Origin: a virus | Strand: one strand, 5' to 3' | DNA length: 21,620 nucleotides | Virus record (IMG/VR): IMGVR_UViG_3300030389_000403 | Span: 1 to 21,620 of that record | Shown: piece after piece, positions 6,914 through 15,852 of the stretch | How the letters are laid out: the number at the start of each line of letters is the position of its first letter | Position numbering within the stretch: position 1 is the first letter of the stretch | Translations under genes and position numbers: made by a program | Notes under the pieces: generated by a model | Seen by the model: the letters and a program-made list of their open reading frames with translations, nothing else | Told to the model about the DNA's origin: nothing | Databases searched by the model: none

Positions 6914-7450
6914 ATGGCTACAACTACAAAGGAATATACAGGGGATGGTTCTAAGGGTGTAGCCGGTGGTGCACAGCTAACCTTCCCTTTTCCCTATCTA
7001 AAAACTGAAGACGTAAAAGTATCTCTCAATGGACAGGTACTTGCAACAACTAAATACACATTTCCAACAGCGACCTCCATCCAGTTTAATGCTCTTGGAA
7101 GCTCACCATCTGCATTTGAAACATTAACACAAGAGACTAACGGAGCTCCTAAAACTGGTGTTACTATCTTAATATTTAGAAAAACTGACATGGATACAGC
7201 TCAGGCTGTCTATGCTACAGGTTCATCAGTAAGAGCTACTGATCTAAATAATAACACAGACCAGTCTTTATTTTTTGCACAAGAAGCATCAGATACATCA
7301 AACCCACTTATATCTTTGCTTCAAGCATTTACAGCTAATACCCACTCCGTAGTAGATGAATCTATTGTGTACTATGATGCAGCAACAGCATCGTTTCAAG
7401 CAGATGCAACAACAACAAAATCAACAATCGTGGACGGAGGTTCCTTTTAA
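6914..7450 (+). CDS. Tail fibre N-terminal adaptor, T7 gp17 N-domain family
   Basis: A 178-aa protein that covers little more than the N-terminal tail-attachment domain of T7 gp17 (T7_tail family). It contains the family pattern: an early Y-TGDGS and FPFPYL strand, DVKVSLNG (T7 has a V-V-x-L-x-G strand here), KYTFPTATSI, GVTILIFRKTD, then VRATDLNNNTDQSLFFAQEA, matching the conserved R-A-x-D-L-N helix of gp17. T7 gp17 is 553 aa with a coiled coil and a receptor-binding tip. Here those parts are missing and are presumably supplied by the following separate genes. The protein ends VDGGSF. Those GGA GGT codons place GGAGG 10 nt before the next ATG. The gene starts directly after the upstream TAA. 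Confidence 0.9.
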   Translation: MATTTKEYTGDGSKGVAGGAQLTFPFPYLKTEDVKVSLNGQVLATTKYTFPTATSIQFNALGSSPSAFETLTQETNGAPKTGVTILIFRKTDMDTAQAVYATGSSVRATDLNNNTDQSLFFAQEASDTSNPLISLLQAFTANTHSVVDESIVYYDAATASFQADATTTKSTIVDGGSF

Positions 7451-8299
7451 ATGGCTCAATTAAGAATAAAAAGATCTACTGGGTCTACAGCACCTAGTAG
7501 TTCAAACTTAGCAAACGCTGAATTAGCGTTCTGCGAAGGAGATGAAACTCTTTATATAGGTAAGGGTACAAGCGGTAGCAACGCTGCATCCGTAGTAAAA
7601 ATCGGTGGTAAGGGTGCATACGTAGATTTAACAAATGCTCAGACTGTAGCCGGTGACAAAACATTTAGTGGTAACTTAGCTATATCAGGTAATCTAACAG
7701 TTAATGGTACGACTACAACTGTTAATACTACAAACACTACTGTAAGTGATCCTCTAATGGAACTTAATAGTGGTGCTAGTTCTAACTCTAACGACTGTGG
7801 AATCCTTATTGAAAGAGGTTCTACTGGTGATAATGCTTTTATAGGTTTTGACGAAAGTACTGATAAGTTTACTGTAGGTCTAACAACAGATACAGCTAAC
7901 TCAACTGGTAATTTAAGTAATTTTACAACAGGTACATTAGTAGCTTCATTAGAAGGTAATGTTACTGGTAATGCTAGCTCTGCTACTGCACTACAGACTG
8001 GAAGAACAATAGCTGGTGTAACCTTTGATGGTACTCAAAATATATCTTTAAATAATAATAGTATTACAAACGGAGCTGGCTATATTACAAGTAGTTCTAA
8101 TATTACTGGTAACGCAGCTACAGCTACAACAGCTACAAATATTACAGCTACTGCAAACAACTCTACAAGTGAAACTGTTTATCTAACTTTTATAGATGGA
8201 CAAACTGGTGCACAAGGAATCGAATCAGATACTGATTTAAGCTATAACCCATCTACTGGTGTACTCTCAGTTGGACAGATCGACGGGGGCACATTTTAA
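7451..8299 (+). CDS. Tail fibre/structural beta-repeat protein
   Basis: A 282-aa Thr/Ser/Asn/Gly-rich protein of the kind that forms trimeric phage fibre shafts. It opens with MAQLRIKRSTGSTAPSSSNL, then NAELAFCEGDETLYIGKG, an N-terminal motif I associate with cyanophage and other marine phage fibre proteins. Residues about 57-110 contain DKTFSGNLAISGNLTVNGTT, a short beta-repeat common in fibre collar and shaft segments. Later parts have GNVTGNASSAT and GNAATATTATNITAT repeats. It ends QIDGGTF, echoing the VDGGSF end of the preceding protein. The ATG abuts the upstream stop. Immediate neighbours on both sides are fibre proteins, so it most likely forms part of the same host-recognition structure. 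No enzymatic motif is present, and the exact position in the fibre is unknown. Confidence 0.8.
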   Translation: MAQLRIKRSTGSTAPSSSNLANAELAFCEGDETLYIGKGTSGSNAASVVKIGGKGAYVDLTNAQTVAGDKTFSGNLAISGNLTVNGTTTTVNTTNTTVSDPLMELNSGASSNSNDCGILIERGSTGDNAFIGFDESTDKFTVGLTTDTANSTGNLSNFTTGTLVASLEGNVTGNASSATALQTGRTIAGVTFDGTQNISLNNNSITNGAGYITSSSNITGNAATATTATNITATANNSTSETVYLTFIDGQTGAQGIESDTDLSYNPSTGVLSVGQIDGGTF

Positions 8300-9988
8300 A
8301 TGGCTACCAAACTACTACATAAAAGAGGTACGAGTGATCCTACTGCTTCTGATCTTGATGTAGGTGAGATTGGTATTAATACTACTGATGGTGGGATCTT
8401 TACAAAAACCTCTGGTGGCACGGTTGTCGAAGCTGGCGGAGGAGGAGGTGGCGGTGGTGTTACTTCGGACTCTCAAGGTAATACAGTTGCCGGAACTAAT
8501 GCTGGTGATAACTTTAATGGTACTGAAGCTAATTATAATACTTGTTTTGGATATGACGCTGGAACTGATATTGATAATGGTGACAATAATGTCTTTATAG
8601 GTTATCAGGCTGGTGCAAACGCTACAGATGCTAGAAATGCTGTAGCTGTAGGGTATCAAGCTTTATTCAGCATGGGAGGTTCGAGAGCGTATCAAACAGC
8701 TGTAGGTTATCAGGCACTTCGTAATAATTCTTCCGGACAGGAATGTACAGCTGTAGGTTATCAAGCATTGTATTCTAATAGTAGTGGAGACGATCAGTGT
8801 GCTTTTGGAGTTTATTCTTTACAAAACTCTAACGGAGCTAATAATAGTGCATTTGGTTACAAGTCACTCATGGATGTATCCAGTGGTACTGAGAACTCTG
8901 CTTTTGGAAGTTTAGCTTTAGAAAATAATACTTCAAACGGTAACACTGCTGTTGGGTATAAAGCTTTAACTTCAAACGGAACTGGTAGCTGGAACACAGC
9001 AGTCGGTCATGAGGCACTTCAGAATAATACAGGTGCAACTAGCTGTACTGCTGTAGGTGTCGAAGCATTAAAAAGAAATACAACTGGTGAAGCTAATGTA
9101 GCTATAGGTGCTTATGCTTTAAACTACAACACTTCTGCAAACAATAATGTTGCTGTAGGAGAAATGAGCTTATATAATAGCACAGGTACTGCTAACGTTG
9201 CTATGGGTCATCAAGCTGGTCAGACACAAACAAGTGGCACCAGAAATGTATTTATAGGCTATCAAGCTGGACACGATAATACAACAGCAGATGATAATAC
9301 GGCTGTTGGTTATCAAGCTTTAGATAAATGTACAACAGGTACAAAGAATGTAGCTATAGGACCACTAGCTTTACAGGGAGTTATAGATCATAACGGAAAC
9401 ACAGCTGTAGGTTATGAAGCTGGTAAACCTCATTCGGGTGCAAACAATACACTTATAGGTTATCAAGCTGGTGCAGTATCTAACTCTGGTGATAATAATA
9501 TTGTCATTGGAAAAGAAGCTTACACTTCAACAACTACTGTATCTAACGAGATAACTTTAGGAAACGGAAACAATAATAAGTTTAGAGTTCCCGGAACTAA
9601 CCTAGAATCCTCAGCTGGTGTACTTGATATTAAAAACGGCGGAACAGCATCTGAAATGCGTCTATACTGTGAGTCAAATAATGCTCACTATGCAGCTCTT
9701 AGAGCTCCTGCACACTCTGCTTTTTCTGGTAACTTAACTTTTACTTTACCGGGAAGTTATGGCTCTAATAATCAGGTATTAACGTCTAATGGTAGTGGAG
9801 GTATGTCTTGGACTACTCCAGCAAGTGGAGGTACATACACAGCTGGTACAGGACTAAGCTTATCAAGTAACGCTTTTTCAATCGCTTACGGTAATTCATC
9901 CAGTAACGCTGTAAGAAAAATAACATCGTCAACATCAGCACCATCAGGTGGCTCCGATGGAGACATCTGGATTAAATACACAAACTAA
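8300..9988 (+). CDS. Tail fibre adhesin with 20 YadA-head-like 17-residue repeats
   Basis: A 562-aa protein. Residues 1-45 form an N-domain (ATKLLHKRG, then LDVGEIGINTTDGGIF) resembling the start of the preceding fibre protein. A run of eight glycines (about 46-53) follows, probably a hinge. Residues about 82-408 hold twenty repeats of consensus N-x-A-V-G-Y-x-A-L. The repeat glycine falls at 84, 101, 118, 136, 153, 170 and so on to 404, a period of 16-18 residues. Such AxG repeats are known to fold as a left-handed beta-roll in YadA-type trimeric adhesin heads, so a trimeric receptor-binding head is likely. The remainder (about 410-562) has ITLGNGNNNKFRV and FTLPGSYG-type strands and ends in a Ser/Gly-rich beta segment. 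The G-rich run at 8285-8289, 10 nt upstream of the ATG, may serve as ribosome site. Confidence 0.85.
   Translation: MATKLLHKRGTSDPTASDLDVGEIGINTTDGGIFTKTSGGTVVEAGGGGGGGGVTSDSQGNTVAGTNAGDNFNGTEANYNTCFGYDAGTDIDNGDNNVFIGYQAGANATDARNAVAVGYQALFSMGGSRAYQTAVGYQALRNNSSGQECTAVGYQALYSNSSGDDQCAFGVYSLQNSNGANNSAFGYKSLMDVSSGTENSAFGSLALENNTSNGNTAVGYKALTSNGTGSWNTAVGHEALQNNTGATSCTAVGVEALKRNTTGEANVAIGAYALNYNTSANNNVAVGEMSLYNSTGTANVAMGHQAGQTQTSGTRNVFIGYQAGHDNTTADDNTAVGYQALDKCTTGTKNVAIGPLALQGVIDHNGNTAVGYEAGKPHSGANNTLIGYQAGAVSNSGDNNIVIGKEAYTSTTTVSNEITLGNGNNNKFRVPGTNLESSAGVLDIKNGGTASEMRLYCESNNAHYAALRAPAHSAFSGNLTFTLPGSYGSNNQVLTSNGSGGMSWTTPASGGTYTAGTGLSLSSNAFSIAYGNSSSNAVRKITSSTSAPSGGSDGDIWIKYTN
8543..9523 (+). repeat. 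Twenty 51-bp-class coding repeats (AVGYxAL) in the fibre gene
   Basis: Degenerate direct repeats of mostly 51 bp encode the AVGYQAL-type units of the fibre adhesin. Words such as GGTTATCAAGC and GGTTATCAGGC recur many times. The period is kept at the protein level (16-18 residues), while synonymous positions have drifted. Confidence 0.8.
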
Positions 9989-12756: not shown

Positions 12757-12996
12757 ATGGCAACAATTTACAATAAAGAAATAACGAACGCTAAACAAGT
12801 ACGTTATCAGGTAAAATTAACTGATGAAGAATCTACTTTACTTACTTTTAATGAAGAAGTAGAAGAAGCTACTTTAGATAAGTTAATAGCTGAAGAACTT
12901 GCGAATAGAGAAGCTATGAAGGACAGACAAGCAAAAATAGATAAAGCAATATCTGAAGCCTTATGGACTGACGAAGAGAGGGCAAATCTTGGCTAA
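12757..12996 (+). CDS. Small charged protein of the fibre module, unknown function
   Basis: A 79-aa protein. The frame is open further upstream to 12703, but that part lies inside the preceding gene, so the ATG at 12757, just after the upstream TAG, is the better start. The N-terminal third is beta-like (ATIYNKEITNAKQVRYQVKL). The remainder is a Glu/Lys/Ala-rich helix (EEVEEATLDKLIAEELANRE) that could form a coiled coil. It sits between the 917-aa adhesin and the GILP-repeat protein and overlaps the latter by 8 nt. It could be a fibre chaperone or small structural protein, but nothing in the sequence decides this. Confidence 0.6.
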   Translation: MATIYNKEITNAKQVRYQVKLTDEESTLLTFNEEVEEATLDKLIAEELANREAMKDRQAKIDKAISEALWTDEERANLG

Positions 12997-13795
12997 TACT
13001 ATTTACGTAAATGTCGGTGGAGTATGGAAGACTGTAACTGATTATTATGTAAATGTAAGTGGAGTATGGAAGACTGGTACAGCATTTGCAAATAACGTGA
13101 GTGGTGCATGGAAAGGAACTGCACCAGCTGGACCAGTTTCCTTACCTACAGCTTTAGAGGCTCTAAGTTTAGATTTTGTAATAGGTATACTTCCATTTGC
13201 AACATCTGATTCCAAGGATACAGTAGATAGCCAAACTTTAGACTTGTTTGAAGGTATACTGCCTTATGCTTGTACAAGTACAACTACTACCGCATTTCCA
13301 ACGACATCTAGCACGCTACCTACAGCTGAAGATTTTTTAAAACTAGACTTTTTTGAAGGTATACTTCCATTTGCAACGTCTGACACTAAAAGTACTTTCA
13401 GTAGTTTAACTTTAGATTTCGTAGAAGGTATACTTCCCTTTGGGTGTACACCTACTACTGTTGCGGCACCTGTAGATTTACCTACAGCTGCACAGTATCT
13501 ATCACTAGATTACGTATTTGGTATTTTACCTTTTACATCATCAGATAGTAAGAATACAATAAATAGTATGGGGTTAGACTTTTTTGAAGGTATACTGCCT
13601 TATGCTTGTACACCTACTACTCAAACAGCCTATCCAACTACATCAGCTACATTACCTACCGCAGCTGACTTTTTGAAGTTAGATAATTACGAAGGCATAC
13701 TTCCTTATGCTACATCAGATTCTAAGGCAAACGTAAACAGTAAATCAATGGATTACACGTTTGGAATACTGCCTTATGTCTGTACCGATATATAA
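12989..13795 (+). CDS. GILP-repeat protein with N-terminal VNVSGVWK triplet, probable tail/fibre component
   Basis: A 268-aa protein starting at TTG 12989. Bases 12975-12982 (AGAGAGGG), 6 nt upstream, form a good Shine-Dalgarno, and no ATG is available. Residues 5-42 hold three copies of V-N-V-x-G-V-W-K, a motif I associate with short phage tail proteins. From residue 52 there are four double units, each starting LPTA (52, 110, 164, 222). The first half ends GILP-F/Y-A/T-x-SDSK and the second half ends EGILP-Y/F-x-C-T. GILP occurs at 66, 89, 124, 147, 178, 201, 236 and 259. Each unit has one Cys (95, 153, 207, 265). Successive pairs are exactly 112 residues apart, so the protein is a duplicated two-unit block. 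I do not recognise the repeat. Location in the fibre cluster suggests a virion part. Confidence 0.75.
   Translation: MANTIYVNVGGVWKTVTDYYVNVSGVWKTGTAFANNVSGAWKGTAPAGPVSLPTALEALSLDFVIGILPFATSDSKDTVDSQTLDLFEGILPYACTSTTTTAFPTTSSTLPTAEDFLKLDFFEGILPFATSDTKSTFSSLTLDFVEGILPFGCTPTTVAAPVDLPTAAQYLSLDYVFGILPFTSSDSKNTINSMGLDFFEGILPYACTPTTQTAYPTTSATLPTAADFLKLDNYEGILPYATSDSKANVNSKSMDYTFGILPYVCTDI
13142..13792 (+). repeat. 336-bp tandem duplication inside the GILP-repeat gene
   Basis: Block 1 (13142-13477) and block 2 (13478-13792, slightly shorter at the end) align with a constant 336-bp offset. A 30-nt stretch encoding FEGILPYACT is identical at 13247-13276 and 13583-13612, and the LPTA and GILP codons recur at the same spacing throughout. 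Each block itself holds two diverged copies of a unit of about 54-58 codons. Confidence 0.85.
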
Positions 13796-13801
13796 CAATT
13801 T

Positions 13802-14401
13802 ATGACTATACACCACCCTTTTCAATATATTTTCGGATTAGAAACAGTAAAAGAAGACTTATCTGAATTAACAACTAATACTTTGTTTGCCAATGGAAGG
13901 CAGCAAGAAACTCAAGAAACAACTTTATCTCCTTTTAATATTTTAGATAACTACGCATTTTCTAAAAATGTTCTTACAAGCTATTTTAACGAGTTTATAA
14001 AAGATGCTTTTAATTATCAATGTGATTTTAAAATAACTACCTCGTGGATGACAAAATTAGGTGTAGGAGAAAGTGTTCACTACCATAACCATCTTAATAG
14101 TCTGTGGAGTGCAGTATTTTATTTTGATGAATATACAGAAGATAGCTGCCCGTTACTATTTCGTAATCCTATACCTAATAGCTTTCCTTTATCTATTGGA
14201 AAGTCAAAACAAAATCCAATGACTAAAGACTGGGGAGTACAGCCAGAGCATAACTTACTTGTAATATTTCCTAGCTGGATATTTCATTATTCTAAACCGA
14301 ATAAAGAAAAAGAAAGAAAATCTCTAGCATTTAATTTTATGCCTTCAACGCCTATTGGCATGTCGGACTCAATCTATGATCCATCATGGAACCAACAATA
14401 G
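13802..14401 (+). CDS. 2OG-Fe(II) oxygenase-like protein
   Basis: A 199-aa protein resembling the putative 2OG-Fe(II) oxygenases of the TIGR02466/PF13759 group that is frequent in cyanophages. Visible family features are a W-x-x-x-x-G strand, the metal-site region SVHYHNHLNSLWSAVFYF (His 93, 95 and 97 followed by an aromatic strand), the segment LLVIFPSWIFHYSKPN (with His 162 as the distal ligand), and R172 followed by SLAFNF, fitting the basic residue that binds the 2OG carboxylate. The enzyme would couple 2-oxoglutarate decarboxylation to hydroxylation of an unknown substrate. It lies after the fibre genes and overlaps the next gene by 16 nt, so it may act on a virion protein or in host metabolism. 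The metal triad assignment is by pattern only. Confidence 0.75.
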   Translation: MTIHHPFQYIFGLETVKEDLSELTTNTLFANGRQQETQETTLSPFNILDNYAFSKNVLTSYFNEFIKDAFNYQCDFKITTSWMTKLGVGESVHYHNHLNSLWSAVFYFDEYTEDSCPLLFRNPIPNSFPLSIGKSKQNPMTKDWGVQPEHNLLVIFPSWIFHYSKPNKEKERKSLAFNFMPSTPIGMSDSIYDPSWNQQ

Positions 14402-14778: not shown

Positions 14779-15005
14779 ACGATCATGAAGAACAGATGGT
14801 GGTACTGGGGGCGATGGTTCGTCTTGGTGTCGTTATCTGGTCTGGGTTTATCATAACCCTTAATTATGTCGAACTACCCATGGTTAAAAAGAGTCCCGGT
14901 GGGGATATAACATTCCCAGCTTCAATATTTACTGGAGCACTCGCCACATTCGGCTTGTCTACAGGCAACGGCAAAAAAGACAAAGAGACAAAACCAAAAA
15001 CATGA
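14721..15005 (+). CDS. Putative holin (gp17.5 position), two-TM small protein
   Basis: A 94-aa protein. It has a hydrophilic N-terminus (MEKKPDEQKGLFKRIKEGID), then two hydrophobic segments (about 26-50, VVLGAMVRLGVVIWSGFIITL, and about 65-84, FPASIFTGALATFGLS), and a very basic tail (NGKKDKETKPKT). Small size, two membrane spans and a charged tail are the usual class II holin features. The location between the gp17-like fibre genes and the gp18-like terminase small subunit matches T7 gene 17.5, the holin. The gene overlaps its upstream neighbour by 58 nt and shares ATGA with the next gene. No endolysin is visible in the window, so the partner enzyme would be encoded elsewhere. Family membership is inferred from topology and synteny. 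Confidence 0.55.
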   Translation: MEKKPDEQKGLFKRIKEGIDDHEEQMVVLGAMVRLGVVIWSGFIITLNYVELPMVKKSPGGDITFPASIFTGALATFGLSTGNGKKDKETKPKT

Positions 15006-15358
15006 CTAAATGGATAATACTCTTAGCTCTGTTGTCACCCGCAGCCGCAAGAGCCAATACTGTAACGCCTCAGTTTACAACAGGGTCGATGCAGTCAACC
15101 ACGACAACACAACAAACAATAACGGAGACTATCGAGCACGACATAAAAGGCTCGGCTTCTTCGTCTTGGAGTGGTACAAATATTACTGTGACTGGCAGCA
15201 TAGGAGCAGACAACGCAACTTATGCACCAACAAACAATGCAGCGGACTGGGATCTACAGATCACAACCAGAGAAGCTGGCACAATCGAAACAATCACAAT
15301 AGAAAGAGAAATCGAAACAGACAGTACCACTACATCTTACTCTATCTTCTCTCAATAA
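15002..15358 (+). CDS. Small secreted Thr-rich protein, unknown function
   Basis: A 118-aa protein with a textbook signal peptide: MTK n-region, WIILLALLSPAAA core, and A-R-A before Asn 19. The mature part is Thr/Ser-rich and beta-like (TTTTQQTITETIEHD, then SSSWSGTNITVTGSIG) and has no Cys. The start overlaps the holin candidate through ATGA. A second frame (the gene that follows) is open across this whole gene, so this DNA is potentially read in two frames. I take this frame as the real one over 15002-15358 because it has a proper signal peptide and a plausible secreted-protein composition, while the other frame there is Arg/Asn-rich and looks like a shadow. Confidence 0.6.
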   Translation: MTKWIILLALLSPAAARANTVTPQFTTGSMQSTTTTQQTITETIEHDIKGSASSSWSGTNITVTGSIGADNATYAPTNNAADWDLQITTREAGTIETITIEREIETDSTTTSYSIFSQ

Positions 15359-15852
15359 CTGCACCAGCATTTGCAGAAGGAGAAGATACTAATGTAAGTA
15401 ATCCTGTAGCAGCAGCTACGGGTAACGTAACTAACCAAGCTGTACAGTTCCAGAACAATGGAGCTCAGAGTCGTCAGTATTTTGGTCCTAATATAAGCTG
15501 TAATGGCAGTACAATGACATTCCAGCCTTTCTATATGGGTAATCATACCAAACCATTTGACGAGCTTATGCAGCCTAGTAGTTACACAATAGCTGAGAAC
15601 TGGGGATTCCAGATTAACTTTATGGTTCCTCTAGATAAATCAGGCTACAAACAATGCAAAGAAATAGCAAAACGCTATGAAGAAAAGATGCGGCTTGAGT
15701 ATGAACTTACACGAGCCCATAAGTGTGCCGACTTACAAAAGAAAGGCTTTCAGATACGGCCTAATACAGACATGTATGTCATGTGTCAGGATATAGTACC
15801 GATAGTCAAAGTCAAGCCACCTAAACCTAAAAAGAAATTTGGATTATTTTAA
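15334..15852 (+). CDS. Secreted Cys-containing protein with undefined start codon
   Basis: The C-terminal protein is clearly coding: a signal-peptide-like core ILLYLLSITAPAFA, then a mature part of about 160 residues with YFGPNISCNGSTMTFQPFY, GFQINFMVPLD, KQCKEIAKRYEEKMRLEYEL, and a proline/lysine tail ending KKKFGLF. It has paired Cys and looks exported. The problem is the start. In this frame there is no ATG, GTG or TTG between TTG 15166 and ATG 15514, and ATG 15514 would remove the signal peptide. The frame is open back to ATG 15010, but that reading is the -1 frame shadow of the upstream gene. I placed the start at ATC 15334, before the hydrophobic core, as a working choice. Alternatives are ATA 15355, a -1 frameshift from the upstream gene, or an assembly error. 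Confidence 0.55.
   Translation: MLLYLLSITAPAFAEGEDTNVSNPVAAATGNVTNQAVQFQNNGAQSRQYFGPNISCNGSTMTFQPFYMGNHTKPFDELMQPSSYTIAENWGFQINFMVPLDKSGYKQCKEIAKRYEEKMRLEYELTRAHKCADLQKKGFQIRPNTDMYVMCQDIVPIVKVKPPKPKKKFGLF

Follow-up and report, generated by a model that had tools for sequence, protein, structure and literature searches.

What is a protein that carries the tetrapeptide GILP eight times, and why does its gene lie among the fiber genes of a cyanophage? We addressed this question in 21,620 nucleotides of viral DNA (IMG/VR record IMGVR_UViG_3300030389_000403), which we refer to as the window. The window comes from a T7-like marine cyanophage: its terL is 80 to 84% identical to those of P-SSP2, P-SSP3, P-SSP7, and S-RIP phages, and outside the fiber cluster its gene order is that of P-SSP7. 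The GILP gene sits in a variable fiber region, in which a 917-aa gene, a 79-aa gene, the GILP gene, and a gene for a 2OG-Fe(II) oxygenase (matching PF13759 and phrog_81) follow one another (Table 1). This region is strongly mosaic across the 53 IMG/VR loci that we fetched via a downstream gene.

A GILP repeat protein in a mosaic fiber region

The GILP ORF begins 236 nt past the stop codon of the 917-aa gene. Two observations support its TTG start: a GAGAGG stretch lies just 5' of it, and its 8-nt overlap with the preceding ORF recurs in the relative in locus L051, there with a GTG start. Small ORFs occupy the place of the 79-aa gene in most relatives, and a methanogen virus has none; the 79-aa protein is a possible assembly factor.

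Table 1. Features of the fiber region, with positions in the window
Feature	Position	Strand	Details
Probable spike gene, 917 aa	9999..12752	+	Conserved N-terminal part and C-terminal domain, hypervariable center
79-aa protein encoded between the spike and GILP genes	12757..12996	+	Small ORFs at this place in most relatives
GILP repeat protein, WK3 plus four LD units, 268 aa	12989..13795	+	TTG start
WK3 module (residues 5-43)	13001..13117	+	Three 14-residue xVNVxGxWK repeats; Trp 13/27/41
LD unit 1 (residues 52-109)	13142..13315	+	Motifs LDFVIGILP, LDLFEGILP, plus Thr-rich linker
LD unit 2 (residues 110-163)	13316..13477	+	Motifs LDFFEGILP, LDFVEGILP
LD unit 3 (residues 164-221)	13478..13651	+	Motifs LDYVFGILP, LDFFEGILP; 71% identical to unit 1
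LD unit 4 (residues 222-268)	13652..13792	+	Motifs LDNYEGILP, MDYTFGILP

The sequence-only reading of this protein had described a duplication at two levels, and its description was accurate to the residue. GILP occurs eight times (residues 66, 89, 124, 147, 178, 201, 236, and 259) and LPTA four times (52, 110, 164, and 222), and the two halves of the repeat region, offset by 112 residues, are 66% identical, versus a maximum of 18% in 2,000 shuffles. Each unit has one Cys in register (residues 95, 153, 207, and 265). The SDSK ending that had been assigned to every unit is present in units 1, 3, and 4 (residues 73, 185, and 243), whereas unit 2 has SDTK (131). At the DNA level, the repeats are 152 nt long and 70 to 75% identical. 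The closest relative, in locus L068, is likewise duplicated at two levels (units 1 and 3 are 65% identical, 2 and 4 are 58% identical, and 1 and 2 are 28% identical). In addition, the N terminus of the GILP protein holds a second, different repeat on which that reading was silent, three copies of xVNVxGxWK, which we call the WK3 module.

Two side observations concern the neighboring genes. In the window, the T7-type fiber N-terminal domain is encoded by a separate 178-aa gene, followed by 282-aa and 562-aa fiber-like genes (6914 to 9988), and the fiber seems to be divided among several proteins, whereas P-SSP7 has the 715-aa gp17. A 118-aa ORF (15002 to 15358) and a 280-aa ORF (15010 to 15852) overlap in different frames; the start of the 280-aa ORF is doubtful because PHROG support falls mainly over the later part of the longer ORF.

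The WK3 module and the LD unit

Direct searches of phage records, IMG/VR, and the PDB returned no GILP homologues. Relatives were reached first via the neighboring gene (53 IMG/VR loci) and then by a scan for the WK3 module, which gave 80 loci. One of the 53 loci, L051, has a GILP relative in the corresponding position; its identity is 74% across WK3, and beyond the module it is far more diverged. The relatives belong to phage fiber and spike modules, as had been expected of homologues, and the impression that the 56-residue unit matches no named repeat family was borne out by profile searches of Pfam, PHROGs, and NCBIfam, which gave no credible match, and by the PDB, which gave none. We did not accept NCBIfam match PRK11440.1 (24.5 bits, cutoff 195) or a match of the L068 protein to Pfam Lipocalin_3, both of which are below cutoff. 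The WK3 and QPF motif strings had no match in the literature searched. Both modules are apparently undescribed, and neither is covered by a named repeat family.

Comparison among relatives resolved the GILP repeat into a unit with the pattern LP, about 7 aa, an LDxxxxxLP-like motif, about 13 aa, and a second motif. We call this the LD unit; the window protein has four (E 2e-86, with a profile built with the window units included). The motif takes forms such as LDYLEWSLP, LDVSDFVLP, LDIAYLGQP, and FDIIGFAVP in relatives, and GILP ends all eight motifs in the window. Natural proteins have 2, 4, 6, or 8 motifs, most commonly 2, which indicates that repeat number reflects expansion: the GILP repeat is a fourfold-expanded form of the two-motif LD unit. 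One unit is the usual number; L097 has two, three occur in L051 and L087, and four occur in L068 and the window. The modules are arranged as WK3 then unit, as unit then WK3, or with WK3 between two half-units (L116, L117, L121, and L127), in all cases beside the spike gene described below. LD units also occur with other long repeats and without WK3; in L157 (2980 to 5394), L158, L159, L150, and L165, they precede long arrays of a short repeat (xADKGTFALTGNAAxL), again beside the spike.

Three repeats were present in 73 of 78 distinct WK3 modules, a count biased against fewer than three because the query has three, while more than three would have shown; in the other five, the deviating count is due to a Trp lying beyond the module or to a W-to-F change. 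The module is fused, at either end, to LamG and Kelch domains (by Pfam), to Gly-rich, adhesin-like regions (by sequence), and to LD units, and in isolates WK3 genes adjoin tail-fiber or minor tail genes. Downstream of LD or degenerate units, seven loci have a variant with about three xYIKTxxxTW repeats; this triple (xYIKTxxxTWx) replaces WK3 in L197, L200, L239, L241, and L253, and the other two loci are L196 and L230.

We modeled residues 1 to 96 with AlphaFold using 36 sequences; an earlier two-sequence model was discarded (pLDDT 31). WK3 is predicted to form three beta-hairpins (residues 6 to 15, 20 to 29, and 34 to 43) with a pLDDT of about 75 to 85. The LD unit is predicted to have no strands, and its pLDDT, mostly 46 to 66, is low enough to be compatible with a compact or a disordered chain. 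In BFVD, Foldseek matches were confined to the hairpin module, which recurs in many phage proteins, and a PDB fold search with the model of WK3 plus one unit gave matches at E > 1 only.

Each of the four cyanophage-type WK3 proteins with several units (window, L051, L068, and L087) has the 2OG-Fe(II) oxygenase gene next to it (13802 to 14401 in the window). This gene also lies beside a few single-unit proteins (L071, L110, and L111), and in most loci with one unit none is seen. The oxygenase is possibly linked to the expanded repeats. We did not adopt it as a modifier of the repeats because P-SSM2 and Sf-CH11 have relatives of this gene elsewhere in their genomes.

Genetic linkage to the spike and matched motifs

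The center of the 917-aa protein shows 14 to 18% identity, and searches of Pfam, PHROGs, NCBIfam, and the PDB with this protein found nothing credible. Its homologue in Methanosarcina virus MetMV weakly matches NosD beta-helix repeats, below the cutoff. Given this match and the combination of conserved ends with a variable center, the sequence is probably that of a beta-helix spike, and we refer to it as the spike.

Linkage between the LD unit and the spike held in both directions. Among 58 non-redundant WK3 clusters, 25 had unit and spike, none had the unit only, one had the spike only, and 32 had neither. The spike was found in 25 of 25 unit-bearing clusters versus 1 of 33 without a detected unit (p = 1.5e-15, a value that overstates independence because common descent of the cassette adds to the counts), and in the sole spike-only cluster, L071, the unit is degenerate. 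The reverse scan used a spike region and kept 80 loci of 148 spike candidates. Downstream DNA was visible for 58 spike clusters, and 57 of these had a unit, 49 by profile and 8 as degenerate units recognized by eye (for example, IGPWGPAV...VGPWGAVY in L230); L252 was the exception. The pair of spike and LD unit also occurs without WK3, in MetMV and in a Ca. Methanoperedens contig (loci L148, 1632 to 5398, and L173). In the isolate VPv81, the spike homologue is partial and no unit accompanies it.

The motifs themselves are matched within proteins. At motif positions 5 to 8, agreement was 88% within a protein versus 26.5% between proteins (41 distinct pairs; permutation p = 1e-4, permutation maximum 44.5%), while the six residues preceding each motif agreed at 13% within and 11% between. 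Because of these unmatched flanks we rejected recent duplication as the cause, although a small excess remains in the codons: at identical motif residues, 57% of codons agree versus 46% expected from usage (P = 1e-4). Because codon agreement is only slightly above chance, the match is mostly at the protein level with a small excess at the DNA level, and some gene conversion is possible. The match is weaker in L051 and L087, and the eight motifs of L068 are of two types, arranged A-B B-A A-B B-A.

From this match it follows that a single constraint acts on both motifs, either a shared partner or each other. We prefer a shared partner because of the linkage to the spike. No exact copies of the motifs were found within the spike. 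In an exploratory analysis, uncorrected for multiple tests or phylogeny, a few spike segments stood out for covariation with the motif (spike residues 266 to 345 and 761 to 835); this covariation is suggestive at best and does not settle whether the constraint is a shared partner or the other motif.

Candidate roles and comparison with known systems

The reading that we find most plausible, tentatively and short of calling it probable, is that the GILP protein would be a structural connector of the adsorption apparatus, with WK3 on a trimeric fiber and the LD units on the spike. The three beta-hairpins of WK3, with one Trp each, would dock one copy onto a three-fold symmetric fiber or tail element. 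The partner of the LD units would be the spike, whose gene lies two genes upstream; each motif of a unit would take an equivalent site on it, so that both motifs would have to suit the same partner and would change together. Fourfold expansion to eight GILP motifs would make the connector multivalent or give it longer reach. Counting against this role, two motifs per unit have no obvious fit to a trimer, the LD unit is without a confident fold, cassette inheritance may partly explain the linkage, and VPv81 has no unit.

The matched motifs would also be expected if the motifs were strands that pair within a unit, or between neighboring units, in one small self-contained fold; the protein would then be a tip adhesin that touches the host through its LD part, and its linkage to the spike would reflect cassette inheritance. 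The order of motifs in L068, which places equal motifs side by side across units, is consistent with such a fold, as is the position of WK3 between the motifs in L116, L117, L121, and L127, which implies that the halves meet in space; moreover, other WK3 passengers (LamG, Kelch, and Gly-rich) resemble binding domains. We nevertheless consider this reading doubtful, since no strands are predicted in the unit and near-exclusive pairing with one spike family, even without WK3, is unexpected for a free-standing adhesin. A nonstructural role as a spike chaperone or trimerization aid, absent from the virion, is unlikely. It would fit a gene that directly neighbors the spike and a small ORF located where assembly factors are usually encoded, as well as the size of most members (about 95 to 110 aa), but WK3 is also found on lectin-like and Kelch domains, which fits virion parts, and LD units are fused to long passengers in proteins of up to 1,046 aa.

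The sequence-only reading had suggested that the repeats form a solenoid or a trimeric prism, its Cys possibly joined by disulfides or metal. The in-register Cys pointed that way, but relatives have other residues at that place, so the Cys is no family feature, and the low-confidence model of the unit shows no regular structure; we regard this proposal as very unlikely. Least probable by our assessment is a functionless tandem duplication, in which recent slippage would have expanded a low-complexity sequence. The identity between the two halves and between the DNA copies speaks for slippage, but viruses of bacteria and of archaea both conserve the unit, the motifs stay matched while the flanks and most synonymous sites diverge, and the two-level layout is found in L068 as well.

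We also consider a more specific and rather speculative idea, somewhat less plausible to us than the self-contained fold: the LD unit may be a private address code for virion assembly, in which each spike lineage would have a short motif of its own, written twice in the partner and kept identical by selection. If this were true, only the right accessory protein would join the right spike, in bacterial and archaeal viruses. Matched, co-changing motif pairs are in any case an unusual evolutionary signature, and they offer a handle on recognition between spike and accessory protein.

The proposed connector resembles the S16/T2-type gp38, one copy of which joins the gp37 trimer (PDB 6F45). S16 offers the nearest precedent for the mechanism: there, three Trp of this monomeric adhesin dock into the gp37 trimer at three pockets equivalent by symmetry (PMC6851490). 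Both are encoded in a fiber cluster and have an N-terminal three-Trp module and a swappable distal domain, which is Gly-rich in some WK3 proteins (CHOED gp10, L104, L107, and L123). In contrast, the Trp of gp38 lie on alpha-helices whereas WK3 is predicted to form beta-hairpins, and PDB searches found no sequence similarity. The GILP protein also has no Gly-rich stretches and hence no polyglycine (PGII) sandwich domain, and for this reason we do not file it as a gp38. By analogy, we take WK3 to work like gp38 docking without belonging to that family.

Among database families, PHROG 25859, 21772, and 36019 (function not assigned) match WK3 over their first ~40 residues (E about 0.003 to 0.01 for the window protein and down to 1e-4 for relatives); their remainder differs, and none spans the LD unit. 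The closest parallel to the LD unit is in MetMV, where only 14 nt separate a spike homologue from the next gene, whose protein begins with an LD unit (hypothetical proteins AZF89914 and AZF89921), with motifs LDWAFQGQPF and MDWAFQGQPF. Unlike the window, this pair has no WK3, no small ORF between the genes, a different passenger, and an archaeal host. Recognizing the two modules would aid the annotation of many "hypothetical" genes near tail fibers: WK3 is common to many phages and fused to many domains, and the LD unit goes with a single spike family in viruses that range from cyanophages to those of methanogens.
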